In this document: positions 14,392 to 41,400 of the stretch, piece by piece | How the letters are laid out: every line of letters begins with the position of its first letter | How positions within the stretch are numbered: position 1 is the first letter of the stretch | Assembly: GCA_002839605.1 (NCBI GenBank) | Contig: PGYK01000002.1 | Span: forward strand, 62,001-126,000 | Source: Methanomicrobiales archaeon HGW-Methanomicrobiales-3 | GTDB lineage: Archaea > Halobacteriota > Methanomicrobia > Methanomicrobiales > Methanospirillaceae | Reading direction: 5' to 3' | DNA length: 64,000 bases | Made by a program: the position numbers and the translations under genes | Notes under the pieces: generated by a model | What the model was told of the DNA's origin: nothing | The model's input: only the letters and a program-made list of their open reading frames with translations | Database searches by the model: none

Positions 14392-14901
14392 TTACTCCCA
14401 GATCTTCCGGCTCACACCGTATCCCTGCCCGCATTTCTCGTAGAAGTGCTGGTGCGACTCTTCCGCGGGCCAGAACTGCTGCGCGGGTAACACCCTGGTG
14501 AGGATGTGGCGACCGGTATACTCCGGCAATGCCGCGAACCGGTCGCGTGCTGCTATCGCTGCGATCCTCTGCGCGTCATCATGGTAAAATATTGCGGAGC
14601 GGTACTGCGGTCCGGCATAATCTCCCTGCCCGCCATCCTGCGCCGGGTCATGGATGGAGAAGAAGATGGAGATGAGCTCATCGTACGTGACAACCGCAGG
14701 ATCGAAGACAATCCCCACGGCATGCATATGGCCGGTCGTCCCGCTCTCGACCTGTTCATACGTCGGACTTGTGACTGTTCCGCCCGTGTACCCCGCAATG
14801 GTTTCCACAACGCCATCGATGTGCCGGAATGCAGCCTCCACATCCCAGAAGCAGCCGGCAGCAAAGGTGGCTTTCTCGTAGTGGCAGCTGGTATCGTCCA
14901 T
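14392..14901 (-). CDS. msrA: Peptide methionine-S-sulfoxide reductase MsrA
   Basis: A 169-residue enzyme that reduces the S epimer of methionine sulfoxide in proteins and free methionine. The active-site motif GCFWDVE is at residues 15-21, with the catalytic Cys at 16. Asp stands where most members have Gly. Substrate-binding features GYTGG and YRSAIFYHDD are present, and the C-terminus has EKCGQGYGV with a possible resolving Cys. The start at 14901 is preferred to an upstream frame opening at 14973 because homology begins there. The matching MsrB is encoded 11 kb away. It is followed by no gene on the same strand. Confidence 0.93.
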   Translation of the reverse strand: MDDTSCHYEKATFAAGCFWDVEAAFRHIDGVVETIAGYTGGTVTSPTYEQVESGTTGHMHAVGIVFDPAVVTYDELISIFFSIHDPAQDGGQGDYAGPQYRSAIFYHDDAQRIAAIAARDRFAALPEYTGRHILTRVLPAQQFWPAEESHQHFYEKCGQGYGVSRKIWE

Positions 14902-14956
14902 ATACTGCCGGGTTGGGTGCGGCAGGAAATGAAACGTGCGGGTTGAGAAAAAAAGC

Positions 14957-15006
14957 TCTGGAGAAACGAACATGAACCGATCCGGTTCACTCCCGACACA
15001 TGAAAA
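14957..15006 (+). repeat. 50-nt dispersed element, copy 1
   Basis: This segment matches 60680-60729 without gaps at 42 of 50 positions. It contains GGAGAAACG followed at ribosome-site distance by ATGAACCGAT, an internal stem GAACC/GGTTC conserved in both copies although the loop differs, and it ends in ATGAAAA. It may be a small conserved RNA, a leader-peptide module or a mobile repeat. Confidence 0.5.
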
Positions 15007-15198: not shown

Positions 15199-16257
15199 TT
15201 ACGTGCCCGCCTTCCACTGGGCGTATACGTGGTTGAGGACGGGTACAAATTCTTCGGTTGCCTTCTGGTTGCCGGCCGCAGTGGGGTGGTCGTCGTCCCA
15301 TCCCGAAGCATAGGCAGCGGTATTGTGCGTCCCCATCATGCCGGATTCGACCGTGTGCCTGACAGCGCCGTTCTCCATCCGGTGGTGGTTCCCGCTCTCC
15401 TTCCCGGCATCGTTCGTGCTGCTGCTGCCGCCATTGCTGGTCAGGACATTGTAGAAGTCATAGACAACGACATTCTTTCCGGCATAACCCGTGAGGTAAT
15501 CGTTCACCAGCCACGTGTTGAACGCACGGGCATTCGCTGCGTGGGTGCCGTCACTGAGCGGGGGAGCAGTAACGATGATGAAGAGCTTGTCGGGCCGGGT
15601 TTTGAAATATTCCAGCAGGTCGAGATAGATACTCTTTGCATTCGCGACGGTATGGTACTCGGACCATGCCCCATCTTCCCGCAGGGGGTTGTTGTCGATG
15701 GAAGGCACGGGATCATTTGCGTTCCCCTGCAGTGCCGAGTTCGGGAAGCAGGACTTGAACATGATGATCTCGTTCTCCCCCCCGGGACTCTCTGCAAACC
15801 GGGTGTAGGCCGAGTGTTGTCCGTCTTCCTTGTATACGCGGTCCATAATTGCTGCCGCCTGCGGACTCCGGAACCACGCCCACCACTGGCCGATGTCGGT
15901 CATGTCGCCAATCGGGTAACTCTCCGGGCCATAGCCGGGGCCCCAGCCATAGTTCGTGTCGCTGACAAAGTAGTTGTTCTGCATCAGCGCCCGCGCGAGG
16001 TTCCCGTTGTCGTCTGTCAGCCAGTTCTCCCCGCAGGAGTGGTGGATGAAGATGAGCCTCACCGGTTTATCGCCTGTCGGATCGAACGTAACGCTCCCTG
16101 CGGGGATGTCCACAGCACGTGTCTCTTCACACCCGGGATCCGGTACGGGTTCTTCACAGGGCTCCTCTGTGGCAGGCCCGGTGCAGAGCGCACAGCAGGA
16201 GAAGAGCACGAGGATCAGGACAATTCCCGCATGCATCATTCGGACGGTTCTTCCCAT
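15199..16257 (-). CDS. Exported SGNH/lipase-like protein, fifth gene of the dockerin/PKD operon
   Basis: A 352-residue exported protein. The N-terminus (HAGIVLILVLFSCCALCTG) is a signal sequence, possibly a lipoprotein signal ending in Cys. The mature domain begins with PVRLIFIHHSCGENWL, has a HAANARAFNTWLV helix, an exposed NVVVYDFYNV strand and ends with GWDDDHPTAAGN, where D and H resemble the catalytic Asp-x-x-His of SGNH hydrolases. This family assignment is inference. Unlike the first three operon proteins it has no dockerin. It lies 63 bases after the giant PKD gene, so it is likely the last gene of the transcript. Confidence 0.65.
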   Translation of the reverse strand: MGRTVRMMHAGIVLILVLFSCCALCTGPATEEPCEEPVPDPGCEETRAVDIPAGSVTFDPTGDKPVRLIFIHHSCGENWLTDDNGNLARALMQNNYFVSDTNYGWGPGYGPESYPIGDMTDIGQWWAWFRSPQAAAIMDRVYKEDGQHSAYTRFAESPGGENEIIMFKSCFPNSALQGNANDPVPSIDNNPLREDGAWSEYHTVANAKSIYLDLLEYFKTRPDKLFIIVTAPPLSDGTHAANARAFNTWLVNDYLTGYAGKNVVVYDFYNVLTSNGGSSSTNDAGKESGNHHRMENGAVRHTVESGMMGTHNTAAYASGWDDDHPTAAGNQKATEEFVPVLNHVYAQWKAGT

Positions 16258-16320
16258 GCAGGAGTGCTATGGGGCAGCGGGAGCATCAAGGTTTCCAAAA
16301 AAAAAGAGTTTGAAGGAATC

Positions 16321-19300
16321 TTACTTTCCTGTCCACATGGCAAGCCACGGGGGCAGGACAAAGATGAACCGGAAGTCCTGGTCGGACCCGTAGTTGTTGC
16401 TGACGTAGAGCCGGGCAAAGTAGATGCCGGGGTCTGCGTAGAGGTGGGTCGGGTTCTCTTCAGTCGAGCTTGTGCCGTCACCGAAGTACCAGGTGCGGGA
16501 GGTCGGGTTATTGATTGACTGGTCGGCAAACTTGACCGTCATCGGGGGGGTGCCCCAGGTCTTGTCCGCAAAGATCACGGCGACCGGCTTCTTGCCGGCA
16601 GGGGTTGTTTCGCCTTTGACCGTGATGTAGTCGCTCTTGATCTCCATGTCGGTGCCTGCCGCATTGGTCACGACAAGCTTGACGGCGTATTTACCGGCAT
16701 TTGCATAGGTGTAGGTCGGGTTCTTCTCGGTGGAGTCAATCACGCCATCGTTGTTGAAGTCCCAGTTCCACTCGGTGATACCGGTACCCTTGCTCTTGTC
16801 GGTGAACTTGACGGTCAGGGGTGCCTTGCCGGACTGCTTGTTGGCCTTGAAGTTCGCGGTGGGCTTCTCGAGCTGGTTCACCCTGATGAACTCAGCCTTC
16901 TCCATGGTGTCGGAGCCGCCCGCATTGGTGACGGTCAGGCTGACATTGTACTTGCCGGCATTTGCGTAGGTGTAGGTCGGGTTCTTGTCAGTTGAGTCAG
17001 TGACGCCGTCACCGTTGAAGTCCCATGCCCATGCAATGATGTTCTTGCCAACCGACTTGTCGGTGAACTTGACGGTCAGGGGTGCCTTGCCGCTGGTGGG
17101 CTTTGCAATGAACTCAGCCGTGGGCTTTGCGGGCGGGACTGCCGAGACCGTGATGTAATCGGTCTTTGTCTCGGTGACCGTGCCGCCGCTGCCCTTGACT
17201 GCGAGGCTCACGGTATAGTTCCCGGGCGTCGCGAAGGTGTGACTGGGGTTCTGTTCAGTGGAATCAACGATGTTGTCGCCGTTGAAGTCCCAGCTCCAGC
17301 TGATGAGGCCGATGCCGGTGCTCTCATCCGTGAACTGGACGGCGAGCGGGGCATAGCCTGCGGTCAGGTTTGCGGCAAACGCAACGACCGGTGCGGGGAC
17401 CGGCTTTGCGACAATGAAGTCTGCTTTCACCGATTCGCTGCTGCCACCGGCGTTTGCAACGGTGAGGTTCACCGTGTAGTTGTCGGGCGCTGCATACGTG
17501 TGGCTCGGGTTCTGTTCGGTTGAGTCAACGATACCATCGTTCTCGAAATCCCATGCCCAGGTGTCGACCATGCCGGTCGAGTGGTCCTGGAACTCAACAA
17601 GGAGCGGGACAAAGCCGCTGGTCTGGTTTGCGGTAAAGTCGGCTACCGGGGGAGCCATGGTTACCGTGATGTACTGCTCGCGGGCCATCATGTCGGAGCC
17701 GCCGGCATTGGTGACGGTCAGGCTGATATTGTACACACCCGGAATGGTATACACGTGTTCGGGATTCTGTTCCGAGCTGTCAACAACGCCATCGTTCTCG
17801 AAGTCCCATGACCATGCGGTGATGGCTTCACCAACGGACTCGTCCGTGAAGAGGACGGTAAGCGGAGCCGTGCCTGCGGTTGCATTGGCGACAAAGCCGG
17901 CAACCGGTGCTGCGACCGTGACGGCGATATAGTCAGTTTTAACTTCGCTTGCTGCACCTGCCGTGTTGGCTACAGTGAGGTTCACCGTGTAGGTGCCGGA
18001 TGCGGTGTAGGTGTGGGCCGGGCTCATATCGGTGCTGTCAATCACGCCATCGTTCTCGAAGTCCCAGGCATACGTTGCTGCATTTGCCGAGGCGTCGGTG
18101 AACTGGACGGCAAGCGGCGCGGTGCCCGAGAGGGGCTCGGCGCTGAACTGCGGTACCGGTGCAGGTTCGCTGACCGTGATATACGAGGCTTCGGTCTTCG
18201 TATCAGAGCCGGCCGCGTTTGTTACTGTCAGGCTGACCGTGTAGGTCCCCGGTGCGGTGAAGATGTGCATTGGGCTCTGCTCGACATTGTCGATGGATCC
18301 ATCGTTTTCAAAGTCCCATGCCCAGCTGTCAATGGTGCCATTTGAGGCATCGGTAAACTGGACGGTCAGGGGCGCTGTGCCCGAGAGCGGGTCCGCGACA
18401 AAGCCGGCGACCGGCTTTGCGAGCGGTTCGGTGACGGTGATGAGCGCGTTCTGAGTTTCCGTATCAGATCCGCCAGGCCCGGTCACGGTGAGGTTGACCG
18501 TGTAGGTTCCTGCGGTTGTGTAGACAAACGCGGGGTTCTGTATGGTGGAATCAACGGTTCCATCGTTCTCGAAATCCCAGGCATACGCGGTGATGCTGCC
18601 GGCAGACTCGTCCGTGAACTGGACGGTGAGCGGTGCGTCACCATTGGTCGGGACTGCGGAGAAACCGGCAACCGGTGCCGGGGCGGTCACGGTGATGTAG
18701 TTGGGCTTGATCTCGTAGTCAAGGCCGCCCGGGCCGGTGACGGCCATGTTGACGGTGTACACGCCCGGTTCGGTGAAGGTGTAGGTCGGGTTCTGTTCAA
18801 TGCTGTCGGGCTGGAGATCGTTGTTGAAGTCCCAGTAGATAGCAGCGTACTCGCCCGAGGACTCGTCCGTGAACTGGACGGTGAGGGGTGCAACACCCGA
18901 AGTGGGGCTGGCCGAGAACCCGGCAACCGGCGGCTGGACGATGGTCGGCGTCGGGGCTGCGGTCACGGTGATGTAGTCGGTCTTTGTCTCCTCATCGGAT
19001 CCGCCAGTACCGGTAACGGTCAGCTGGACGCTGTAGGTGCCGGGGAGCGCATAGGTGTAGGTCGGGTTCTGTTCGGTTGAATCGATGGTGCCATCGTTGT
19101 TGAAGTCCCAGGAGTACCCGGAGACGTCACCTGCCGATGCATCGGTGAACGCAACGGTGAGGGGTGCCTCTCCATAGGTTGTGTCTGCGGTAAAGTCAGC
19201 AACCGGTGCCGTGGTTCCGGTCGTTACGGTGATGTAGTCCTCTTTGAAGACATTGTCAAAGCCGCCGTCACCGGAGACGGTAAGCTTGACCGAGTAGGAT

Positions 19301-20631
19301 CCTGCATCGGTATAGGTGTGGGTGCAGTCCTTTGTCATGCAGTCAACGGTGCCGTCATTGTCCACGTCCCAGAGCCACGAAGTGATCTGGCCGACAGATT
19401 CATCGGTGAACTGGACGGTCAGGGGGGCATCACCCGAGATCGGATCTGCGGAGAATGCGCCGACCGGTGCCGGAACGGTGCTGCCCGGGAAGGTGAGCTG
19501 GATAACGTTCCCTGCTACTTTCTCGCCGTCATCATAGACTGCGGTGATACTGAAGTAGTAGGTCTCGCCGGCAACAATGGAGCCGCCGAAGTCGCCGCCA
19601 TTATATCCGTCGCCCTCGCTGATGGTGACGGTTGTGGTGGTGCGGTCGGTGAACCAGTGCATGTACCCGTCAGCCGGGTAGGCCGGGTTCGGGTTGTCCT
19701 TCGAGATGACAACCTTGTAGCCGCTGAGATCAGCGTCATCGATCTGCTCCCAGTTCATGACCACGGTGCTGCCGGCAATTCCGGCAGTGACGACCGGAAC
19801 CGTGTGATCCGGTACCTGAGTGGTGGTCGGGGTTGGGGTTACAACATCGGATGCGGTGATATAATCTGCCGTGATCTCACTGTCGCTGCCACCGGTGCCG
19901 GTGACCGTAAGAGAGACCGTGTACGTGCCTGCTGTACCGTAGGTGAAGGTGGGGTTCTGTTCGGTGCTGTCGGTGGTTCCATCATTGTCAAAATCCCATG
20001 CCCATTCGCTGATCCCGTCACCGGTCGAGAGATCGGTGAACTGGACCGTGAGCGGGACGTCGCCGCTTACCGGGCTGGCCGAGAAGCCGGCAACCAGCGC
20101 GGGGATCTGGGTGGTTGTGGGGGTTGGTGTTACGGTGCCTTCAACGGTGAATGAGCCGTCCGCGATAGCGGGGCTCATGATACCGCCGTCGTCATCGTCC
20201 ATCTGATTTAAGGTGATGGTGATTGGGGTTGTTCCGGCCTCATCGGCGCGGAGGGTAAGGGTTGCAAGGGTGATATCGTTGGCATTGTCTGCAACGGTAT
20301 TCATGAGGTCTGCAGCTTTTATGGTAACAGAATCTGCCGGAAGGGTTCCTTTGTTGTTCAGGGTGGCCCATGCGGGGAACGAGACATCGGTGATCTCTCC
20401 CACGGCAGGATTGGTCAGGGTAACGGTCAGTGAATAACCGGATAAGCCGTCAGGCGCTTCGTCAAGGACGATAGCATAGTCGACCGTCTCTCCGGCTCCT
20501 GATGCCGTCACGTCCTGCCCGTTCAGCTGGAAAGCTGAAACCGGCAGGACCAGTGCGGCAAGGAGTACAAGCGTCACGAGAAGGGCAACAAAGCCATTCA
20601 TCGATCCGCTGCGGTTCTGTGTTGTATTCAT
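16321..20631 (-). CDS. Giant PKD-repeat surface protein with cohesin-like N-terminal domain
   Basis: A 1436-residue exported protein. A signal peptide (residues 1-33, ending VLPVSA) is followed by a 125-residue domain starting FQLNGQDVTASGAGETVDYA and closing with LATLTLRADEAGTTPITITL then DGSFTV, an order resembling cohesin domains. One PKD domain (about 175-260), a fibronectin-III-like domain (about 270-385), and 12 further PKD domains of about 82-90 residues follow. Each has the PLTVQFTD and WDFxNDG motifs. No C-terminal anchor is seen; it ends PPWLAMWTGK. Its ATG lies 3 bases past the stop of the upstream dockerin gene, with GGAG in that gene's end. It could act as the scaffold on which the dockerin proteins assemble. 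Confidence 0.85.
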   Translation of the reverse strand: MNTTQNRSGSMNGFVALLVTLVLLAALVLPVSAFQLNGQDVTASGAGETVDYAIVLDEAPDGLSGYSLTVTLTNPAVGEITDVSFPAWATLNNKGTLPADSVTIKAADLMNTVADNANDITLATLTLRADEAGTTPITITLNQMDDDDGGIMSPAIADGSFTVEGTVTPTPTTTQIPALVAGFSASPVSGDVPLTVQFTDLSTGDGISEWAWDFDNDGTTDSTEQNPTFTYGTAGTYTVSLTVTGTGGSDSEITADYITASDVVTPTPTTTQVPDHTVPVVTAGIAGSTVVMNWEQIDDADLSGYKVVISKDNPNPAYPADGYMHWFTDRTTTTVTISEGDGYNGGDFGGSIVAGETYYFSITAVYDDGEKVAGNVIQLTFPGSTVPAPVGAFSADPISGDAPLTVQFTDESVGQITSWLWDVDNDGTVDCMTKDCTHTYTDAGSYSVKLTVSGDGGFDNVFKEDYITVTTGTTAPVADFTADTTYGEAPLTVAFTDASAGDVSGYSWDFNNDGTIDSTEQNPTYTYALPGTYSVQLTVTGTGGSDEETKTDYITVTAAPTPTIVQPPVAGFSASPTSGVAPLTVQFTDESSGEYAAIYWDFNNDLQPDSIEQNPTYTFTEPGVYTVNMAVTGPGGLDYEIKPNYITVTAPAPVAGFSAVPTNGDAPLTVQFTDESAGSITAYAWDFENDGTVDSTIQNPAFVYTTAGTYTVNLTVTGPGGSDTETQNALITVTEPLAKPVAGFVADPLSGTAPLTVQFTDASNGTIDSWAWDFENDGSIDNVEQSPMHIFTAPGTYTVSLTVTNAAGSDTKTEASYITVSEPAPVPQFSAEPLSGTAPLAVQFTDASANAATYAWDFENDGVIDSTDMSPAHTYTASGTYTVNLTVANTAGAASEVKTDYIAVTVAAPVAGFVANATAGTAPLTVLFTDESVGEAITAWSWDFENDGVVDSSEQNPEHVYTIPGVYNISLTVTNAGGSDMMAREQYITVTMAPPVADFTANQTSGFVPLLVEFQDHSTGMVDTWAWDFENDGIVDSTEQNPSHTYAAPDNYTVNLTVANAGGSSESVKADFIVAKPVPAPVVAFAANLTAGYAPLAVQFTDESTGIGLISWSWDFNGDNIVDSTEQNPSHTFATPGNYTVSLAVKGSGGTVTETKTDYITVSAVPPAKPTAEFIAKPTSGKAPLTVKFTDKSVGKNIIAWAWDFNGDGVTDSTDKNPTYTYANAGKYNVSLTVTNAGGSDTMEKAEFIRVNQLEKPTANFKANKQSGKAPLTVKFTDKSKGTGITEWNWDFNNDGVIDSTEKNPTYTYANAGKYAVKLVVTNAAGTDMEIKSDYITVKGETTPAGKKPVAVIFADKTWGTPPMTVKFADQSINNPTSRTWYFGDGTSSTEENPTHLYADPGIYFARLYVSNNYGSDQDFRFIFVLPPWLAMWTGK

Positions 20632-20633
20632 GT

Positions 20634-21791
20634 CTATAACTCCTCGAATAGTTTTGTGATGTCGGCAAAGTCGATACGGCCGTTCCCGTTGAAATCAAAG
20701 TTCGGGAGCGGTTCGTTTTCTGTAATCCATTCCATATGGGTAAAGAACAGCGTGACGTCGGCAAAATCCGCCCTGCCGTTCCCGTTCAGGTCCTCAAAGA
20801 GGCCATCATCACCGGGATCGGTTGGTACGGAACTCATTCCGGGCAGCGGCAGGACCTGCGGCTGAAGAGAAAACTTCTGGACGCGGTTGTGCTGGCCGTC
20901 GCCGACATAGATGTTGCCGGAGGCGTCGACTGCGATGCCGGTCGGGGCATCGAACTGGCCATTGGCGGAGCCGAGACCTCCCCATTCCGTGATGAAGGTG
21001 CCGTCAGCTGCGAACTTCTGGACCCGGTGGTTCATTGTGTCGGTGACAAAGACGTTGTCCTCATCATCGATCGCGATCCCGCCGGGATAGTTGAACTGTC
21101 CGCTGCCAGACCCGCCGGATCCCCAGGTGCTGAGGAAGGTGCCGTCAGAGGCAAACTTCTGGACCCGGTGGTTCCACGTGTCGACAACGTAGACATTCCC
21201 GGCTGAGTCAAGGGCAATGCCGGCCGGGAACGAGAACTGACCTGTGCCCGTCCCCTGCGAACCCCATCGGGTGAGGAAGGAACCGGCCGCGTCGAACTTC
21301 TGGACCCGGTGGTTGCTGTTGTCAACAACATAGATGGTGCCGTCAGCAGCGGTTACGATGCCCCACGGATAGTAGAGCGAACCGTTGCCGGTTCCGGCCG
21401 AAGCGAACTTCGCCAGGTACGCGCCGTCAGGTGCGAATTTCTGGACCCGGTGGTTGTTGTTGTCCGTGACAAGGACATTGCCACTGCTGTCAAGGGCAAT
21501 GCCAAAGGGCATGAAGAACTGGCCGTTGCCCGTGCCCCCGGATCCCCATTTTGTGACAAAGATCCCGTCGGGGGTAAACTTCTGGACCCGGTTGTTCTCG
21601 CCATCGGCAACATAGATCGAGCCGGCGGCATCGATGGCGATCCCGACCGGCATCCGGAACTGGCCGTCGCCGGTCCCGGTCGATCCCCATTGGGTGACAT
21701 ACCCGTAGGTCTCCGCTGCCTGCACGCCCGGGATAAGGATGAGCAGGAGGAGGACGGGGATGAGCCGGACAATTGAGTGGTGGTGTTCCAT
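20634..21791 (-). CDS. NHL-repeat beta-propeller protein with C-terminal dockerin
   Basis: A 385-residue exported protein. After a signal peptide (LIPVLLLLILIPGVQA, about residues 10-26) come six NHL repeats of about 47 residues, each ending NHRVQKF or NNRVQKF and containing the spaced GNGQF/YVADG-type strands of a six-bladed propeller. Such propellers bind proteins, nucleic acids or glycans. Residues about 325-385 are a dockerin-like module with two calcium loops, DLNGNGRADFADV and DFNGNGRIDFADI. The gene is 5 bases from the upstream gene and overlaps the ribosome site of the giant PKD gene downstream, so it is within the operon. Confidence 0.88.
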   Translation of the reverse strand: MEHHHSIVRLIPVLLLLILIPGVQAAETYGYVTQWGSTGTGDGQFRMPVGIAIDAAGSIYVADGENNRVQKFTPDGIFVTKWGSGGTGNGQFFMPFGIALDSSGNVLVTDNNNHRVQKFAPDGAYLAKFASAGTGNGSLYYPWGIVTAADGTIYVVDNSNHRVQKFDAAGSFLTRWGSQGTGTGQFSFPAGIALDSAGNVYVVDTWNHRVQKFASDGTFLSTWGSGGSGSGQFNYPGGIAIDDEDNVFVTDTMNHRVQKFAADGTFITEWGGLGSANGQFDAPTGIAVDASGNIYVGDGQHNRVQKFSLQPQVLPLPGMSSVPTDPGDDGLFEDLNGNGRADFADVTLFFTHMEWITENEPLPNFDFNGNGRIDFADITKLFEEL

Positions 21792-21796
21792 AGCGT

Positions 21797-23365
21797 TCAG
21801 ATCTCCGTAAAGAGCGCCGAAATGTCGGCAAAGTCGATGCGATCGTTGCCGTTGAAGTCAAAGAGTGCAACCGGCTCGTTTGCCGCAACCCACTCCATCT
21901 GGTCGAAGAAGAGGGTCACGTCGGCAAAATCGGTACGGCCGTTCCCGTTGAGGTCTTCATACAATCCGTCGTTGTCCGGATCGGTCGGCGGGCTGGTCAT
22001 GCCCGGCAGGGTGACCGGCTGCTGCACGGTCTTCTCGGGCCCGAGCCGGATGATAGAGAAGCCGGGGTTGGGTTCATCTGCCTGGATGCGGGTGCCGCTG
22101 ATGACAAAACCGCCATCGGCAGTCCTCTCAATCGAGGCAACGGTCGAGTCAGGATACTGGGGAACGTACACGTTCTCCCACACGGTGCTGCCCGTACTGT
22201 CGACTTTGACAACGAGCGCTCCAGCGGAAGAACCAGCGACCATGAAGCCGGCGTCATCGGTCTCCACCACGCCACGGGCATCCGCGGACGGGCGGGACGA
22301 AGCCGGGGTTGATTCCCAGAGGAGGTTGCCGCTGCTGTCGGTCCGTACAAGGTAGATCATGCGGTGGCCGGATGCATCGACCGTGTACCCGGCAGCAATG
22401 AAGCCGCCGTCCGAGGTCTGCCGGACATCGTAAGCCCCGTTCTCCGGGTTGCTGCCAAACTCCTGCTGCCATGCGATGCTGTTGTCGGGATTGAGCCGGA
22501 CAAGGAGCAGTTTTGCTGCCGTGCCGCCCGCGGGGGTGCTTGTTCCTGCAAGGATGAAGCCGCCGTCCGAATTCTGCCGGATGCTCTCCGCGGACTTTGG
22601 AACTGTGCCGTCATAGGCGCCGGAGCCGGTGGTGGTTCCGCTGCCGTCCATACGGATCAGCCAGGCATCGCTGGTGGTTTCGTTCGGATGGTATGACCCT
22701 GTTATTCCTGCAAGGGCAAACGATCCGTCGTTTGTTGTGGTAACCGCGTTGAACTGGTCGGCATACCGGCTGTCTGCCCCGGGCCAGCTGCGCTGCCAGT
22801 AGGCACCGGGCGTGCCATCGTACCCGTCGGCTGCGGTGTGGAGGAGCCAGCCGTCGGTCTGTGGCGGGTTGAACGCCCGCGAGCCTCCGACAAAGACATA
22901 GCCGTCCGTATCGGCAACTGCATCAGTGAACGTGTCAAAGGTGCCGTCGGTTCCATAAAGCCATGCCCATTTCCACGTGGTGTTCCCGTTGACCGGCTCT
23001 TCAAGGACGATTGCTGCGCCCTGCGCCGATTCTTCGGTGCCGCCCTCGCGGGACTCGCCCGCGATCAGGTAACCCCCGTCAACGGCCGGGATAGCGGTCT
23101 TCCCATAGAAGTCTCCGTCCCAGAAGACAGCAAACTTCCAGAGCAGATCGGGCGCTGTCGTGGATGCGGAGTCGCCTGCTGCTGCAAGGCGCATGGGGCT
23201 TGTGGGTGTGTCGTCTCCAAAAACCCTGATACTGGCAGGTTCGATGGACGATCCGGCAGGGTCGGCTTCCGCAGAAACCGGTATGCATGCGAGCGCCAGC
23301 AGGACGCATGCTCCAAGAAAGATGGAGAACGCACGCGATCCGTTCGACTGCTGTGCATACTGCAT
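21797..23365 (-). CDS. Exported repeat protein with C-terminal dockerin
   Basis: A 522-residue exported protein. The signal peptide ends near PVSAEA (residues 15-33). The body has about seven repeats built around DGGFIxAG or DGGFVISG followed by a W-containing strand (e.g. SDGGFIAAGYTVDASGH), resembling delta-60/kelch-like propeller blades. The end is LPGMTSPPTDPDNDGLYEDL and then two dockerin-type loops, DLNGNGRTDFADV and DFNGNDRIDFADI. The second loop has D for G at one position. It lies 5 bases from both neighbours in the operon. The likely job is binding at the cell surface; no enzyme motif is seen. Confidence 0.85.
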   Translation of the reverse strand: MQYAQQSNGSRAFSIFLGACVLLALACIPVSAEADPAGSSIEPASIRVFGDDTPTSPMRLAAAGDSASTTAPDLLWKFAVFWDGDFYGKTAIPAVDGGYLIAGESREGGTEESAQGAAIVLEEPVNGNTTWKWAWLYGTDGTFDTFTDAVADTDGYVFVGGSRAFNPPQTDGWLLHTAADGYDGTPGAYWQRSWPGADSRYADQFNAVTTTNDGSFALAGITGSYHPNETTSDAWLIRMDGSGTTTGSGAYDGTVPKSAESIRQNSDGGFILAGTSTPAGGTAAKLLLVRLNPDNSIAWQQEFGSNPENGAYDVRQTSDGGFIAAGYTVDASGHRMIYLVRTDSSGNLLWESTPASSRPSADARGVVETDDAGFMVAGSSAGALVVKVDSTGSTVWENVYVPQYPDSTVASIERTADGGFVISGTRIQADEPNPGFSIIRLGPEKTVQQPVTLPGMTSPPTDPDNDGLYEDLNGNGRTDFADVTLFFDQMEWVAANEPVALFDFNGNDRIDFADISALFTEI

Positions 23366-23370
23366 AGCAA

Positions 23371-24483
23371 TCAGAGCTCCGTAAAGAGCGCCGAAATGTC
23401 GGCAAAGTCAATGCGACCGTTGCCGTTGAAGTCAAAGAGTGCAACCGGCTCGTTTGCCGCAACCCATTCCATCTGTTCAAAGAAGAGGGTGACGTCGGCA
23501 AAATCCGCGCGGCCGTTGGCGTTGAGATCCTCAAAGAGCCCGTCATTGTCAGGATCGGTGGGGATGCCACTCTGGCCCGGCAGGGTGACCGGCTCTTCGA
23601 CAACCGGGTTTCCATCCCAGCCGGCGATGCGGGCGAACATGTGCCACGCCGCATAGGCTTTCTGGTTTGCGTTCAGGGGCTGGCTGTGGGCCGAACTGCA
23701 GCTGTACCATTCGCCGGGGTGTGCGTTCTGCCACGCGGTTGCCCAGTTCGTGTCCCGGCTGCCGTTGCCATCCGAGTCGTAGTCGCAGTTGTCGTTGGCG
23801 AGCAGGGCCATATAATTGACAAGGCCGTCAGGATCGTAGCTCTCGATATCGGCAAAGTCAAAGAGGACCTTGTTGTTGGCCCGTGCATAGGCGCGGATCT
23901 GCTCGTTTCTCTGGTTCAGGTTGCCGTCCGCTCCCGAACCGGTCAGGTGGCCGGTCATGTACACGAACGTAACGCTGGGGTACTCGCTCTCGAGCTGGTT
24001 CATCAGGCTCAGGTACAGGTCGATGTTGGCCGCTGTTGTGTCGGCCTGCCCGCACCATGACCACATGATGACATTGACATCCGGGTTCGCGTTCAGGTAC
24101 GTGCGGGTGCGGTCTGCCCACGAGGTCCGGTCGGGGTTGCCGAGATCGCCGGACATTGCATAGTCGTGGAGGTCAAGGGCACCGCCCGTGCCGCCATTGT
24201 TCCACCGGTAGGTCTCGCCCCCGTAGGGCGCACCGGCAAACGATACGAGGCCGGTCATGCCGGTCGTGATCTGGCTGCCATGCGAGGTATGCCCGTAAGC
24301 TATATGGAGCGTCGATTTGGCATGATCTATCGCGCTTAAGGGAACCTCGTTGAGGTGGGTGCTGGTGTGGTCGATGATGATCGGCCCGCTCTGGGGCGCC
24401 GCAGCTGCCGGTAGACATACCATGCAGAGGGCGACAGCCAGCACCAGGAAGAGAAAAAATCTGGTTTTGTGCAATCGGTTCAA
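23371..24483 (-). CDS. Exported SGNH-like protein with C-terminal dockerin, first gene of the operon
   Basis: A 370-residue protein. I place the start at TTG 24483, because GGAGG lies 7 bases upstream and the protein then begins with a signal peptide (FFLFLVLAVALCMVCLPAAA). The longer frame to 24627 has no homology or ribosome site. The catalytic-looking domain has IIIDHTSTHLNEVPL, LHIAYGHTSHGSQI and VIMWSWCGQ, and resembles the domain of the fifth operon protein. Family assignment is tentative. The last 60 residues form a dockerin-like module with DLNANGRADFADV and DFNGNGRIDFADI. It heads the five-gene operon. Confidence 0.75.
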   Translation of the reverse strand: MNRLHKTRFFLFLVLAVALCMVCLPAAAAPQSGPIIIDHTSTHLNEVPLSAIDHAKSTLHIAYGHTSHGSQITTGMTGLVSFAGAPYGGETYRWNNGGTGGALDLHDYAMSGDLGNPDRTSWADRTRTYLNANPDVNVIMWSWCGQADTTAANIDLYLSLMNQLESEYPSVTFVYMTGHLTGSGADGNLNQRNEQIRAYARANNKVLFDFADIESYDPDGLVNYMALLANDNCDYDSDGNGSRDTNWATAWQNAHPGEWYSCSSAHSQPLNANQKAYAAWHMFARIAGWDGNPVVEEPVTLPGQSGIPTDPDNDGLFEDLNANGRADFADVTLFFEQMEWVAANEPVALFDFNGNGRIDFADISALFTEL

Positions 24484-25993: not shown

Positions 25994-26237
25994 CTTCCCC
26001 CTCCGTTGTCTCAACAGGTTTTCTCTGTGATGAACCATAAACCTGCATCCCCCTTTGGCCGGATACAATGAACCTCTCCGCAGGTAATGAGGGCATCAAC
26101 GGTTCATGTGCGTTTCACCAAAGCAGTCTCTCCGGTCTCCAGCCGGTTTGGATCTGCACGATACAAAGGTCTATTATCCTGCCATCCTGAGTATTCGTCA
26201 GGGACCAGATATGAAGAACAAGGCGGAGGATCCTGGC

Positions 26238-26681
26238 ATGAAGCATATTCCTGTATTCAGGGTGGATACGGGGGCGGTAGAAGATGTTCCCCTCATCCAG
26301 TTCACAGAAGAAGAATGGCGGGCACGGCTCACGCCCGAACAGTACGATGTTGCACGGAAGAGAGGAACCGAATATGCGTTCACCGGGAAATATCATGCCT
26401 CAAAAGAGGCCGGCATTTACCGCTGTGCCTGTTGCGGGACGGATCTCTTCAGTTCAGACGCAAAGTTTGACTCCGGTACCGGCTGGCCCAGTTTCTCGGC
26501 ACCGGTATCGCCCCTGAACATTCGAACGCAGGATGACATGAGCGGAGGCATGATCCGGACTGAAGTGCTCTGCGCCCGGTGCGGGGCGCACCTTGGTCAT
26601 GTCTTCGATGACGGCCCCGCTCCTGCCGGCAAACGCTACTGTATGAATTCGGCAGCCCTGGATCTCAGAAAGACCGGCTGA
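26238..26681 (+). CDS. msrB: Peptide methionine-R-sulfoxide reductase MsrB
   Basis: A 147-residue enzyme that reduces the R epimer of methionine sulfoxide. Two CxxC pairs bind structural zinc (CACCG near residue 58, CARCG near 107). The family blocks GTGWPSF and [10 protein letters not shown] are intact, and the catalytic cysteine is in RYCMNSAAL near the C-terminus. The start at 26238 follows GGAGG by 8 bases and is preferred to the in-frame ATG at 26211. MsrA is encoded separately at 14.4 kb. With the adjacent UV endonuclease and the manganese exporter it suggests a damage-response neighbourhood. Confidence 0.93.
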
Positions 26682-26718: not shown

Positions 26719-27621
26719 ATGCGCATCGGCTACCCCTGCCTCAACCGCTCGATCGGCTGCACCCCATCAAAGACCTTCCGGCTGGCATCCTATACCGAAG
26801 AGCGTCTTGAACAAACAATTGCAGCAAATCTTGCCTGCTTACAGAAGATCCTTGAATATAATGTGGAGCACGGGCTCCTCTTTCTCCGGATAACCTCTGA
26901 CCTTGTACCGTTTGCCTCCCATGAGATCTGCACGTACTCCTGGCAGGAACAGTTTGCCGATATCTTCCAGGGTCTGGGGGATTATTGCAAAAAACACGGC
27001 TTCCGGATCTCGATGCACCCGGACCAGTTTGTCCTTCTCAACGCGCCGGACGCGGGTGTGCTTGAGCGGAGTATCCGTGAACTGGCCTACCAGTCAGCGG
27101 TCCTCGACCTGATGGGGCTTGACCGGACAGCAAAAATTCAGATCCATGTCGGAGGGGTGTATGGCGACAAGGCTGCAAGCATGGACCGGTTCGTGGAGAA
27201 CTACTCGCAGCTGGACAAAACGATACGGGCGCGACTCGTCATCGAGAACGACGAACGGCTCTACGCTGTTGCCGACTGCCGGAAGATACATGATCGAACG
27301 GGCATCCCGGTCATCCTTGATACCTTTCACCATTCCCTGAACAACCAGGGGGAACCGGTTCAGACTGCTCTCTCAATCCTGGCAGAGACCTGGACATCGC
27401 AGGAAGGCCTGCCGATGGTGGATTACAGTTCCCAGCAGGAAGGCAAACGCCCGGGGGCACATGCGGAGCATATTGTATCGGAGGATTTCAGCCGGTTTCT
27501 TGGCGATTCAAAGCCCTGTGATTTCGATCTCATGCTCGAGATCAAGGACAAGGAGAAAAGTGCTAATCTTGCGCTCGCCCTTGCAGCAGAAGATTTTCGG
27601 CTCGTGACCCGCAGTGCATAA
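26719..27621 (+). CDS. uvsE: UV damage endonuclease UvsE/UVDE
   Basis: A 300-residue TIM-barrel metalloenzyme that nicks DNA 5' to UV photoproducts, opening an alternative excision repair route. The sequence begins RIGYPCLNRSIGC and carries family blocks RISSD-like RITSDLVPF, GFRISMHPDQFVLLN, IQIHVGGVYGDK, ENDE and DTFHHSLN, which provide His, Glu and Asp metal ligands. The length matches the core family. It is 37 bases after msrB on the same strand, and a manganese exporter gene follows. UvsE is a manganese-dependent enzyme in known cases, though a link with MntP is only suggestive. Confidence 0.93.
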   Translation: MRIGYPCLNRSIGCTPSKTFRLASYTEERLEQTIAANLACLQKILEYNVEHGLLFLRITSDLVPFASHEICTYSWQEQFADIFQGLGDYCKKHGFRISMHPDQFVLLNAPDAGVLERSIRELAYQSAVLDLMGLDRTAKIQIHVGGVYGDKAASMDRFVENYSQLDKTIRARLVIENDERLYAVADCRKIHDRTGIPVILDTFHHSLNNQGEPVQTALSILAETWTSQEGLPMVDYSSQQEGKRPGAHAEHIVSEDFSRFLGDSKPCDFDLMLEIKDKEKSANLALALAAEDFRLVTRSA

Positions 27622-35424: not shown

Positions 35425-38400
35425 CTAGTCATATTCCCGGAACAGGGCCGGGTTCTGCCGGCGTATCCACCAGCGCCGGACCAGCACAACTCCACATATC
35501 AGGATGGCGCCCAGTATCCCTGCAATGATGACTGGCACCATGAAGCCTGGCACGGTATCCTCCCGTGCTGGTACAGCAGTTGTTTTTGCTGGTGCAGGAG
35601 CCTGGCCCGGGCCTGCCGGCGAGACCTGAGCAGGTTCAGGGCTGCCTGCCAGTTCCCCGAATGTCTCTGATGAGTGGCTGTCAAGAACCCGCTCGTTTAC
35701 AGCAGGGTTTCGTGCAGCGATGGCAAACAGGGAGAACCCGGAACTTTCAGCCGAGAAGAACATCTGGCCGTTCTCGGTCTTCACCCAGGTTGTGGGCAGG
35801 CTTTGCCAGGATCCGGCAGTGTAGTGGTGCAACACGATGTCATCCCGGGTGATCCCCTGTCCGTCTGCCCATGCCTGTGAAACGGAGAACTGGATTGTTG
35901 CGGAGGTTATCGTGGTGTACCGGGCGGGGTTGATCTCGACGTACTGGTAGACCGGGAAGTCCAGTTCCGGTATACCTGCCGTGGGGCCCCAGCGGCTATA
36001 GGCGGTGACGATGATGTCCCGGACCCCGGTGCCGGTAACGGTGACCTGTCGGATGGCGGAACTTCCGCCCACGTTTGCGGTCTGGGTCCCGGGCACCGGT
36101 TCTGCCTTTGAAACCGGCGATGAATCCGAGGTTGAGGTGAGGTAACTGCTGCTGACCGATGATAATGCTGATGCAGCCGGAGGCGATGATGTGGTGGCAG
36201 TTCCCAGGCCCACCACCCCGAATGTCGAGAACCCGCCCGGAACCGTAATCTGGTACGTGGATACGCCTCCCGACGATCCGAGATACGTTGCCGTCAGCAC
36301 CGTGCTGGTGCCACCGTGGGTCCAGACAACCGCAATACCCCCGCTGTTCCGCTCGCGGAAAGCATCCGGCACCGTGATGGTGAGGACCGAACCGGTGATG
36401 GAATTCATACCGGTTGCCGTAATCTCAAAGACCAGGGCTGTTTCGTTCATACGGCTCCCGAGCAGCGACCCGTAAGCAGTGTTCAGGCTCTCGTTTGCAC
36501 CCATGAATGTGAAACTGATGTCGCCGCCGCTGTCATAGGCCGATGCTGAAATATTTGCCTGGAGGGTGGCCGTGCCTTCGGGAATGCTGGCAGTCATCAC
36601 CGGTGTAACGAGCAGGATGCCGGTAATGGTCCCGGTAAGATTTCCGGTCGTATTGCTCACCCCGCTCGTTGAGAAGATGATCTGGTCAAAGCCGCCCTGG
36701 TTGTTTAATATGATCTGGTCGCCGTTCTGCTCTGCACCTCCGGCTCCGGTGAGGTTGACCGAGATCTGGTTGCCGGTAAGGGTGCTGCCTGACGGGAGCG
36801 TTGCACTGTTGCCGGTCGTGCTGTGGGTGGAGATGTAACCGGTTCTGGTGGTCGTGTTGAACCCTGAGCTGTTGGTAATCCGGAACGAGACATCGTAAAG
36901 GCCGACTGCGGTATACTCATGTGACGGGTTTTCAAGCACGGATGTACTGCCATCGCCAAAGTTCCAGAGATATCCGGTGGGGGAGACGACATCTGATGGT
37001 GCGGAGGAGAACTGGACCGTGAGCGGGACTGCACCCGATGTGGTATCCGCTGTGAACGCGGGCAGGGGCAGGGCACCCGACGGTGCCGGCGATGCGGTGA
37101 TGTAACCGTTCATGGTCGTTACATTTGTTCCGGAACTGTTGGTGATGCTGAGAGCAACATCATAGGTTCCTGCAACCGCGTAGGAATGTGATGGGTTTGC
37201 CTGTACCGAGGTGTTGCCATCGCCGAATGTCCAGAGATATGCGGTGGGCATCGTGACTATGGAATCCGCGGATGAGAACTGGACGTTCAGAGGTGCATTC
37301 CCTGTTGTAGTGTCAGCAGTAATGACGGGTATTGGGAGAACCGGAGATGGTGGTGAACTGACGGTAATATAACTGGTCATCGTAGTGGTGTTCGTTCCGG
37401 AGCTGTTGGTGACCTGGAGCGCGACATCGTATGTTCCGGGAATTGAGTAGGTGAATTCCGGGTTGGCGAGAACTGATGTGTTTCCGTCCCCGAATGTCCA
37501 GAGATATGCGGTCGGGCTTGCGACAATGGAATCCGCGGATGAGAACTGTACTGTCAGGGGAGCATTTCCTGCTGTTGTGTCAGCAGATATGACGGGTACC
37601 GGGATTACCGGAGATGGCGGTGAACTGACAGTGATAAAACCTGTCATCGTAGTGGTGTTCGTTCCGGAACTGTTGGTGACCTGGAGCGCGACATCGTATG
37701 TTCCGGCGATCTCGTAGGTATGCGTCGGGTTTGCAAGAGCCGATGAGTTTCCGTCCCCGAATGTCCAGAGATACGCCGTGGGGGAGAACGCATCGGAGAG
37801 CGAGGAGTCGAACGCGACTGGAAGCGGCAGGCTCCCGCTTGTTGTATTGGAACTGAATCCGGGGACCGGTACGGCCCCGCTGCCCCCGCCATCCACGGTG
37901 ATAGAACCGTTGGTGACCGCGAGCGGGCTGCTGATACAGCCATCATAGCAGTTCTGCCAGGTTGCCGGATCAGCGGTCAGAAGGGAATTGGCGCCCGGGG
38001 CCCCGGTTGCCGTGAAGTGGAGGTCGACGAGATCTGTCGGCTCCATGAAGTCCGGCCAGCCCCAGAACTTAATGTAGATTTCAGCCTCACCGGTGGAATT
38101 GTCGATGTCGGCAGTGAGCGTCTCTCCGGAGAATGAGCTGTTCCAGGCGACCTCGTCGAGCTGTACAACGGACGGATCGAACCGGAGCGTCAGCTGGATA
38201 TCATCCGCCATATCAGAGGAGAGGATCTCCGTTGCGGCCAGCATGAAGGTGCCGGACCCCCCGGCTCCAAGCGTGCCCGTGGGCAGGATGATCCGTGGTG
38301 CCGGCGGGTCCTCGACCCAGATCCATTCTTCGAAATAACTTGTGTTACTGCCGTAATCATTGCTCACGGTGAGCGTGATGTTGTAAACGCCGTAATCGGT

Positions 38401-41400
38401 GTATGTATGGACCGGGCGCCGCTCTGTTGAAGTGTCCCCGTCGCCGAAATCCCAGAGCCACGCGGTGGGATACCCTGAGGCGCGATCCTCAAACGAGACC
38501 GTGAGCGGGGGCGGACCGCCACCGGGGTCGCACGATATGAAGTCCCCCACAACGGGCTCAGCGGGTTCGGGCATCAGGACGATATTCTTTGTTACCGTAC
38601 TGTCAGAGATCCCGATGGTGACGGACGTGGTGTTGGCAATAAGGTCGTTTCTCAGGAGCCACGGGGGTTCGGCTTCGAGCGTGTAATTGCCCGGGACAAG
38701 GTTGAGGAACGAATACACACCGGATGCATCGGTCTCGGCATTGGACGGCCATGTCCTGGTGATCGGCCCATCCGTGATCGACACCGCGGACTCATCGAGG
38801 GGATCGCCATAGATGTCGGTGACCGTCCCGGAAATGGAACGGCGCTGGTAGGCAACCACGTCCCACTCGTAACTCTGGCCCGGGGTCAGGTAGGTGTCTT
38901 TAAGCGGGGCCGCGATGACGTCAGAGCCTCCAACGCGGGTATACCTGATATCATACGTTCCGTTCCGCTGGCCGGAGATGCGGTACGAACCGTTCCCCCA
39001 CGAATCGAGCTGGAATACTGATGTAGTCGGACCTTCCGCTATGATGGCCCCCTCGGTAATAATCGTGCCGTTCTCGGCTGTTACGGTCCCATGGATCGCG
39101 ACCGGGCGGAAGAGGGAGAAATTGGCATACGTCGTGCTGCCTGTCGAAAAGCTCACGGATCGGAAATCGGAACTGAAATTGAGGGCCGGCGGTGGCGTGA
39201 CCAGCACCTGCGTTGATCCACCCGTGGCATAGTAAAACCGGTAGAACCCCGCATCGTTCGTTGTTGTGGTCTTCCCGCCCGCGCTGATAGTCACGCTTTC
39301 CAGCGGCCGGCCGATATCATCGCTTATCGTACCCATGAGCAGGGCTGCCGGCCCGAACTGCGTGTGGTCATAGTCTGCTGTGGCATAGGATTCGGGATAG
39401 TAATACGGCGTTATTCCGGAGGAAGTTTTTCCGGCCTGGAGCAATGTTAGATCATACGGACCGTCTATTCCCATGCCATTGATATCCGTTCCAGCAAAGT
39501 CCAGCGTAACATGGTGGGTCATCTGCTGGTCCAGTTGCGGATTGTTTGTAAGCGAGCTGGCAATGACGTTATGGACTACTCCGGTCTGGTTTGCACCTTG
39601 CACGGTCAGTTCGCCAAGAAGGGGGATGGTTGCCGTTCCCGAACTGAACGAGCCGGTCTCCACATCGAAACCAATGCGGATCGCATCGTACATGCCGTCA
39701 CTGTTATAATCGACCGGATAATCGGTGACATTGCCGGTGATCATGACCGGCGGGCTGGCAAAATCCGTATAGTTGAAGGAGACCGTGGTCAGGGGACGTG
39801 ACCGGATATCGGATCCGGGTGGACCGTTTACCTCAAGGGAGCGAACAGAGAAGGTCCCGTTCACCCGGTTGGCATAGATGTCGGCGCCGCTGAACCGGGC
39901 TTTGAGGGTTTGTACACCCGGTGAAAGTTCCCCAATCTCGCCCTGAATTGTCGGTACCTGGCCGTCTATCGTCTGTACCTCGCCGCCCTGTTCATCAAAG
40001 AGGCTGGCGCTGTAGAAGTACCTGGCCTCAGCTGGTACCGTTATTTCGGCAGTGAAGAGGAGGGTCTCGTACCTGCCGTCACTGTTCTGCTGGTCCCCGG
40101 ATGCAGAATAACTGTCAGTGAGGATGGTGGCCAGGGTCCCGAAATCCGACGAATCGATCGTGACGGTTCCTGCGCTCGTGAGCCGGCTCACGGTTGTTCC
40201 CGTGGAATCGAGGATGCGGAAATTCACCATCGTGTAGGTCCCGTCCCGATGGTGTGCAGCGATTGCATTGCCGTCAAATACCAGATCCGCGTTCGCGGCA
40301 CCCGCAGAGAATGTCGAGGTTTCCTGTGCATGGGCGATCTTTTTCCCATCAGGATCCTGCAGGTATCCCTCTATCGTGTATTCCCCGGCCGTGTTGATGA
40401 GGAGGGGGACCGTGACAGAGAGGTCCCTGTCCAGCAGGGAGGCAGTTGCTGTGCCGTCAAACGCCACGCTCACCGGCTCGAAATCCGTGCTGCTATAGGC
40501 TGCGGTCTCCCACGAGACGGATGAGGGTTCCCCGTTCTCGTTCATGTCATGTTTCAGGAGGAGCGTGACATTGTACGGGCCGTCTATGCCATAGGATGAA
40601 ATTGCCGTGCCCTGGAATGATGCGGTATAGGTGAAGGTACCGCTTGCAAACGAGGTCCGGTTGCGGAGGGTCGTGATGACATCGGGGCCGGAACCCTGGT
40701 CACCTGAGAGGATGGCAACGGTGTCGTACATCCCCGGCCAGTCAATCGTGATGTCATTGCCGGCATCCAGCAGATCGTATTTGCCGTTGGCGTTGGTGTC
40801 CTGCGGGTTTTCCGTCATGCCAATGGCAGGGCTCTGTGCGATGATGTCACACATTCCCCCGGCGCACGCTGCAGCAGCCGGGGGGTTCAGGACACCGGTA
40901 ACAACGCTGCCGTTGGCCTGCTTGCCCGGGTATGCCCAGTCGTTTGTGGGGATGCCCCGGCCCGTGTTCCCGGCCCGCATCGCCATGTATTCATTGTCCC
41001 CGTAATATTCGTACTGGGGATGCTTCAGCAATCCGAGAAGGTAGCTGTCTGTGTCGCTGTCAAAGGTTAATGATACCGTATTCTCGTAATCATCGGGAAG
41101 TTTATCGTTGTATGTTTTGTTGCCGAGAACATAGTAGTCGGAGTCGGCCTTCCCGGCGAAACTGCCCCCGGCCAGCCACTGCTCGTTCACCCATTTGTGG
41201 TAATTCTCGTGAGCGATAACCTCAGCCACGCAATCGATGCCCTCGACATCGGGGCCGCCAAAGGACTCTCCTGCAGGATTGTGGTTCGTTGAGGGAATTA
41301 CCAGCGGTGCAGGATAATGGATCGTTGCAGCAAGGGGGAAAACTGCCACTTCCCCGGCCGCGGTTGAAACCCCGTACCCGGGCATGTTCGGGCCGTATTT

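Follow-up and report, generated by a model that had tools for sequence, protein, structure and literature searches.

A cohesin-dockerin pair of the archaeon A. fulgidus is known to bind (PMC9705933), and ANME archaea possess many cohesin/dockerin proteins of unknown role, including scaffoldin-like ones with up to five cohesins (Chadwick 2022 PMC9012536; Timmers 2017 PMC5244752). In ANME-2c and its SRB partner these proteins are highly expressed (PMC10553843). For other archaea, the passage of PMC9012536 that cites Peer 2009 describes cohesin/dockerin domains without multi-cohesin scaffoldins, and Timmers 2017 (PMC5244752) lists none for Methanoregula formicica. Archaeal cohesin-dockerin pairs outside the cellulosomes have no established function.

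The stretch of DNA analysed here (the window, 64,000 nucleotides in its entirety) carries an operon that encodes three proteins ending in dockerins and one cohesin placed on a PKD stalk. Like the A. fulgidus pair (2xdh; Voronov-Goldman 2011) it is archaeal and non-cellulosomal, and its predicted cohesin superimposes on the A. fulgidus one with Z 15.3 and 2.2 A over 123 residues. It differs in having three cargo proteins for a single stalk-borne cohesin and in the low identity of the cohesins (only 16–19%); moreover, binding was shown for the A. fulgidus pair, whereas the pairing in the window is predicted from genes and models. With the ANME proteins it shares the same dockerin and cohesin families. 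In ANME-1 and ANME-2a, however, the modules number in the tens or more, some of them on multi-cohesin scaffoldins and on ABC-transporter binding proteins tagged with a dockerin, in contrast to the closed set of three plus one in the window. The CipA/OlpA type I system of C. thermocellum has in common with it the type I-like cohesin fold, the two-loop C-terminal dockerin and mirrored recognition positions, but the window operon lacks a multi-cohesin scaffoldin, a CBM and cellulases.

Organization of the locus

Reading frames, lengths and spacings matched the initial annotation, in which five minus-strand genes, from 24483 down to 15199, had been proposed to form one operon. The features are the following.

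23371..24483, minus strand: gene 1, exported SGNH/GDSL-esterase-like protein with C-terminal dockerin, 370 aa (Foldseek of the model)
23374..23589, minus strand: gene 1 dockerin module, loops DLNANGRADFAD and DFNGNGRIDFAD (Pfam and direct search)
21797..23365, minus strand: gene 2, exported propeller-like protein (delta-60/DUF5122-like repeats) with C-terminal dockerin, 522 aa
21800..22015, minus strand: gene 2 dockerin module (Pfam and direct search)
20634..21791, minus strand: gene 3, exported six-repeat NHL beta-propeller with C-terminal dockerin, 385 aa
20637..20849, minus strand: gene 3 dockerin module (Pfam and direct search)
16321..20631, minus strand: gene 4, exported protein with cohesin, FN3-like stretch (by eye) and 13 PKD domains, 1436 aa
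20134..20532, minus strand: gene 4 cohesin domain, residues 34–166 (Pfam sub-threshold match and fold)
16357..20100, approximate limits, minus strand: array of 13 PKD domains, the first two separated by the FN3-like stretch (by eye) (profile matches; limits from the sequence)
16297..16305, minus strand: nine T in a row between genes 4 and 5, possibly a terminator of the archaeal type (read from the sequence)
15199..16257, minus strand: gene 5, exported SGNH-like protein without dockerin, 352 aa, probably outside the system

The intergenic gaps from gene 1 to gene 5 are 5, 5, 2 and 63 bases. Gene 1 starts with TTG, GGAGG standing six bases ahead of it, and an N-terminal export signal could be recognized by eye in all five products. 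The claims of three consecutive exported proteins with dockerin-like C-termini, their genes 5 bases apart, and of a following 1436-residue protein with a cohesin-like N-terminal domain and 13 PKD domains agreed with the coordinates, the Pfam Dockerin_1 matches, the 13 PKD matches and the cohesin fold. The five-gene extent stood for its first four members only. Archaeal transcription can end at T runs, and since the T9 tract precedes gene 5 and no homologue of this gene was found at the related loci compared, it is probably not a part of the dockerin/cohesin system. Only genes 1–4 form the conserved unit. Scans for bacterial promoters and terminators were uninformative, the host being archaeal.

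The host is a methanogen of the genus Methanoregula; its mcrA gene (G000:C7:22618) lies on the same contig as the operon, as befits the methanogen presumed in the initial annotation. Genes for MsrA- and MsrB-like methionine sulfoxide reductases (by eye; 14392–14973, minus strand, and 26106–26681, plus strand) flank the operon, and a UV-damage-endonuclease-like gene (by eye) is situated beyond it at 26719–27621. Another large surface-type protein of the window has 2364 residues (35425–42519, minus strand), with five PKD and carboxypeptidase-regulatory-like domains and with neither dockerin nor cohesin.

Dockerin modules

The Pfam Dockerin_1 model (PF00404) spans the C-termini of genes 1–3 nearly end to end (model positions 1/2–52 of 57). 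Scored as single genome hits, the three modules reach or exceed the cut-off of 22.9 bits (26.4, 23.1 and 22.9), and in scans of the whole proteins all fall below it (22.7, 18.5 and 19.7). No other real Dockerin_1 match was found in the host genome, which is 98% complete; a fourth one, of 12.6 bits, falls in the PKD array. Direct sequence search of the genome returned the same three dockerins and no more. Compared over the last 71–72 residues, gene 2 shows 86% identity with gene 1 and 72% with gene 3.

Each of the three C-termini contains, within about 60–70 residues, two calcium loops of the form D-x-N/D-x-N/D-G-x-x-x-x-x-D, for example DLNGNGRADFAD and DFNGNGRIDFAD, and positions D1, N3, N5, D9 and D12 of the loops are conserved among 145 archaeal dockerin relatives. 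Against PDB sequences the module matched mostly calmodulin-like EF-hands and one likely dockerin (5lxv chain B, E 0.0006); therefore sequence search alone cannot tell a dockerin from an EF-hand. Taken together with the features below, the C-terminal modules of genes 1–3 are genuine two-loop, type-I-like dockerins.

Clostridial dockerins contact the cohesin through loop positions 10 and 11, and the repetition of these in both loops provides two binding orientations (compare the titles of the structures 2vn5 and 2vn6); the residues there are S-T. The archaeal modules have F-A, F-D or Y-D instead, the window dockerins carrying F-A in each of their six loops. The internal symmetry of the 145 archaeal dockerins at these positions lies well above that of shuffled loops: position 11 is identical in both loops in 68% of them versus 31% after random exchange of loops among the proteins, and position 10 in 95% versus 74%. 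Positions 2 and 8 show no mirroring. When redundancy was thinned, mirroring persisted at positions 7, 9, 10 and 11 and was weaker at 3 and 17. The mirroring is thus not confined to recognition positions 10/11 (it extends to 3, 7, 9 and 17), which counts against the explanation that we prefer below.

The cohesin of gene 4

Residues 34–166 of the gene 4 protein matched the Pfam Cohesin model (PF00963) over positions 6–139 of 139, with 18.1 bits and E 0.0033, below the cut-off of 24.1. Searched against the PDB as a single sequence, the cohesin gave spurious matches only, and a profile search gave a weak cohesin match (5m2o, E 0.65). As these searches were weak or spurious, the identity of the domain was settled by fold comparison. 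The AlphaFold (AF2) model, for which relatives from public loci were used, has a pLDDT of 96.5 and displays the nine-stranded cohesin jelly-roll fold. The best 50 Foldseek rows were all cohesins or cohesin complexes, and so were 49 of the 50 VIA-align rows listed, with Z up to 15.7 for type I, 15.3 for A. fulgidus 2xdh, 13.7 for type III and about 11.8 for type II. By its predicted fold, the domain is a cohesin. The outcome that would have refuted the initial annotation, absence of any dockerin or cohesin profile match, did not arise. Another member of the family (G146:C17:3285-3671) scores 24.7 bits against Pfam Cohesin, over the 24.1 cut-off.

In the host genome no cohesin exceeded the cut-off of the Pfam model, and the cohesin-family profile revealed no second copy even at E 10. 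The genome thus has three dockerins and one cohesin of the family, all within one operon. The closest relative of the window cohesin, with 65% identity, is G163:C27:119718-120104 (locus L064) of the same genus. No dockerin was found in that 82%-complete genome. Ten ordinary Pfam cohesin matches occur in a further genome of the genus (G184), apparently a different set from the window family.

This uniqueness bears on where the partners would meet. The dockerin proteins might be secreted to bind cohesins on neighbouring cells, either kin or syntrophic bacteria; the operon would then supply both halves of an intercellular adhesion system rather than one complex on one cell. A long PKD stalk would be suited to extending away from the cell, no membrane anchor was seen on the 1436-residue protein, and ANME-2c and its SRB partner both express cohesin/dockerin proteins highly (PMC10553843). 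We nevertheless consider this reading unlikely, since one operon encodes both the only family cohesin of the genome and its only dockerins, and a meeting on or near the same cell is for this reason the simplest arrangement.

Cargo proteins

The model of gene 1 has a pLDDT of 74, and most of its Foldseek matches have a TM under 0.5 and E of 1e-3 or weaker. The nearest structures are PatB O-acetyltransferase, a peptidoglycan O-acetylesterase, the C. thermocellum CE3 esterase and GDSL lipases. The SGNH assignment draws on these weak structural matches, and at a guess the protein may be an O-acetyl esterase or transferase acting on an extracellular glycan. A survey of 69 dockerin proteins yielded mainly NHL propellers (15), PKD domains (14), CBM6 (11), beta-helices (8) and subtilases (4).

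The likeness of one cargo protein to carbohydrate O-acetyl esterases, along with the CBM6, beta-helix and subtilase cargo of the relatives, could be taken for a cellulosome-like polymer-degrading complex. This we regard as highly improbable. The locus has one family cohesin, with none elsewhere in the genome over the Pfam cut-off, in place of a scaffoldin with several cohesins; its cargo is SGNH-like plus two propellers in place of dockerin-tagged glycoside hydrolases; and the host is a methanogen. The cellulosome was rejected on the single cohesin and on the lack of a CBM and a glycoside hydrolase in the operon. The scaffold-like protein of the initial annotation is no multi-enzyme scaffold: having a single cohesin, the 1436-residue protein would hold only one dockerin protein at a time.

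Distribution of dockerins and cohesins

Strong dockerin matches were present in 86 and cohesin matches in 95 of 232 class genomes; 81 had both, 5 the dockerin only, 14 the cohesin only and 132 neither (odds ratio 153). As the genomes are related and both modules are rare in the genus, the test within the genus is the fairer one: among 39 genomes, 7 had the dockerin, 7 the cohesin and 6 both (P=1.5e-5). In a phylum sample of 375 genomes, the cohesin family occurred in 99 and the dockerin in 82.

Relatives of the window locus were collected through the dockerin; the cohesin alignments were too variable. Around 30 best-cohesin loci, one per genome and picked irrespective of dockerins, 19 cases were found of a dockerin encoded by a different gene no more than about 10 kb away, versus 0.7 expected. 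A dockerin-ending gene immediately preceded a gene beginning with a cohesin in 48 instances, and the order was reversed in 3; here the ratio is informative and the total is not, because some loci were collected via a dockerin or cohesin hit. Among 30 neighbour pairs, similarities of dockerins and of cohesins correlated with r=0.72, against 0.37 (sd 0.06) for shuffling within genera (p=2e-4), although such co-variation is no proof of contact, as a cassette inherited as a unit gives the same signal. Dockerin-then-cohesin gene pairs are common in Halobacteriota and keep their order there, in a phylum not expected to break down cellulose, and the "scattered modules" with which archaea had been credited in the initial annotation proved too weak a picture.

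The operon content of the window is conserved in two relatives. In G172, genes for an SGNH-dockerin (81%), an NHL-dockerin (68%) and a propeller-dockerin (34%) protein precede a cohesin gene with which the contig ends, and Methanoregula sp. PtaB.Bin085 (G160) has an SGNH-dockerin, an NHL-dockerin and a long cohesin protein. In three other genomes (G125, G146 and G148) the same SGNH domain lies inside the cohesin protein and the dockerin is on the upstream gene, which in G125 and G146 carries an NHL propeller. An SGNH domain that moves between the dockerin and cohesin sides is compatible with a common complex. At least 11 loci encode proteins of 250–384 residues with one cohesin and a C-terminal membrane segment, often directly behind a protein having both cohesin and dockerin. 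There are 45 proteins with both modules in one chain, mostly 4–17 residues apart.

The last group gives some ground for a different interpretation, namely that the C-terminal modules are calcium-stabilised tails that do not bind this cohesin but attach each protein to a different surface component (S-layer, glycan) or dimerise, and that the cohesin is an Ig-like spacer in a PKD adhesin. The short distance within the 45 single chains resembles that of a structural X-module, and in five genomes family dockerins occur without a window-type cohesin. The strong co-occurrence, the ordered adjacency and the co-variation of partners argue against it, as do the loop mirroring at the recognition positions and the single-cohesin anchor proteins of 250–300 aa with little beyond cohesin and membrane segment, and we find it quite improbable.

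Several other arrangements were encountered. Family relatives of dockerin and cohesin occur in ANME-1 (L104, L130), ANME-2 (L123) and Methanoperedenaceae (L128). Scaffoldin-like proteins with two and three cohesins are encoded at L074:9456-11705, L070:7355-10738 and L094:7926-10715. The three-cohesin protein of L074 ends in a different, Pfam-positive dockerin type, and L070 likewise by eye; a second dockerin type on multi-cohesin proteins suggests that pairing may be hierarchical there. In one genus of the same family (g15; G212–G218, loci L103, L107, L111, L118 and L124), genomes of ~2 Mb have at least 20 dockerin proteins each, with up to 54 dockerin candidates per genome, scoring being capped at 25, against at most five cohesins of the window family, a cellulosome-like ratio.

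Ten loci of large-genome families (L204–L213, e.g. L204:1378-4835) share a two-gene pair, in which a Tat-exported protein of ~880 residues with cohesin+dockerin at its end adjoins a cohesin protein of 220–450 residues with a hydrophobic C-terminal tail. The one ~880-residue protein scanned was a PhoX phosphatase, and one partner tail weakly matches PGF-CTERM. Judging from the twin-arginine leaders and acidic proteins, the hosts are apparently haloarchaea.

Discussion

The data make it likely, in our opinion, that the four genes encode a small extracellular, non-cellulosomal cohesin-dockerin complex whose single cohesin is contested by three cargo proteins. The products of genes 1–3 would be exported, the C-terminal type-I-like dockerin of each folding around two calcium ions, and each dockerin would plug into the single N-terminal cohesin of the PKD stalk in either of two near-equivalent orientations. 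With a single binding site on each stalk, the cargo proteins would compete for it, so that stalks bearing an esterase and stalks bearing a propeller may be expected side by side outside the cell. In support of this explanation, the analysis shows the modules and the cohesin fold, the fact that the genome has no others of the family, the gene order, the co-occurrence and the co-variation. Against it stand the genome of the closest cohesin relative (G163), where the dockerin was not found, and the few genomes having the dockerin without a family cohesin. The binding would presumably depend on calcium and use both orientations, with the complex located at the surface; as the gene 4 protein has no visible anchor, we put forward the surface attachment of the stalk as a proposal. 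Its role may lie in modifying or binding an extracellular polysaccharide or a partner cell, in keeping with the adhesion or polymer binding suggested in the initial annotation.

The closed three-to-one operon, the cohesin family that lies mostly under the Pfam cut-off and the phylum-wide ordered dockerin-cohesin pairs appear to be new, though an earlier description is possible, mainly open literature having been searched. For archaeal pairs with no established function, such a closed set offers a test case. In many genomes the modules are so numerous that the pairings cannot be guessed, while in this genome, with one cohesin and three dockerins of the family in one operon, the pairing is testable with four small constructs.

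The evidence seems to us evenly balanced on the wider idea that dockerin-then-cohesin pairs represent an ancient, general protein-display device of Halobacteriota, with lineage-specific cargo and a membrane-anchored cohesin or a PKD stalk as the receiver. The cargo would then be an esterase and propellers in Methanoregula, the PhoX phosphatase in the apparent haloarchaea and a PQQ-type propeller in another family, and the cohesin+dockerin proteins may have been added in places as an adaptor tier. The recurring gene order yields dozens of further predicted pairs, including the phosphatase-cohesin pair of the apparent haloarchaea, and some haloarchaea are genetically tractable.
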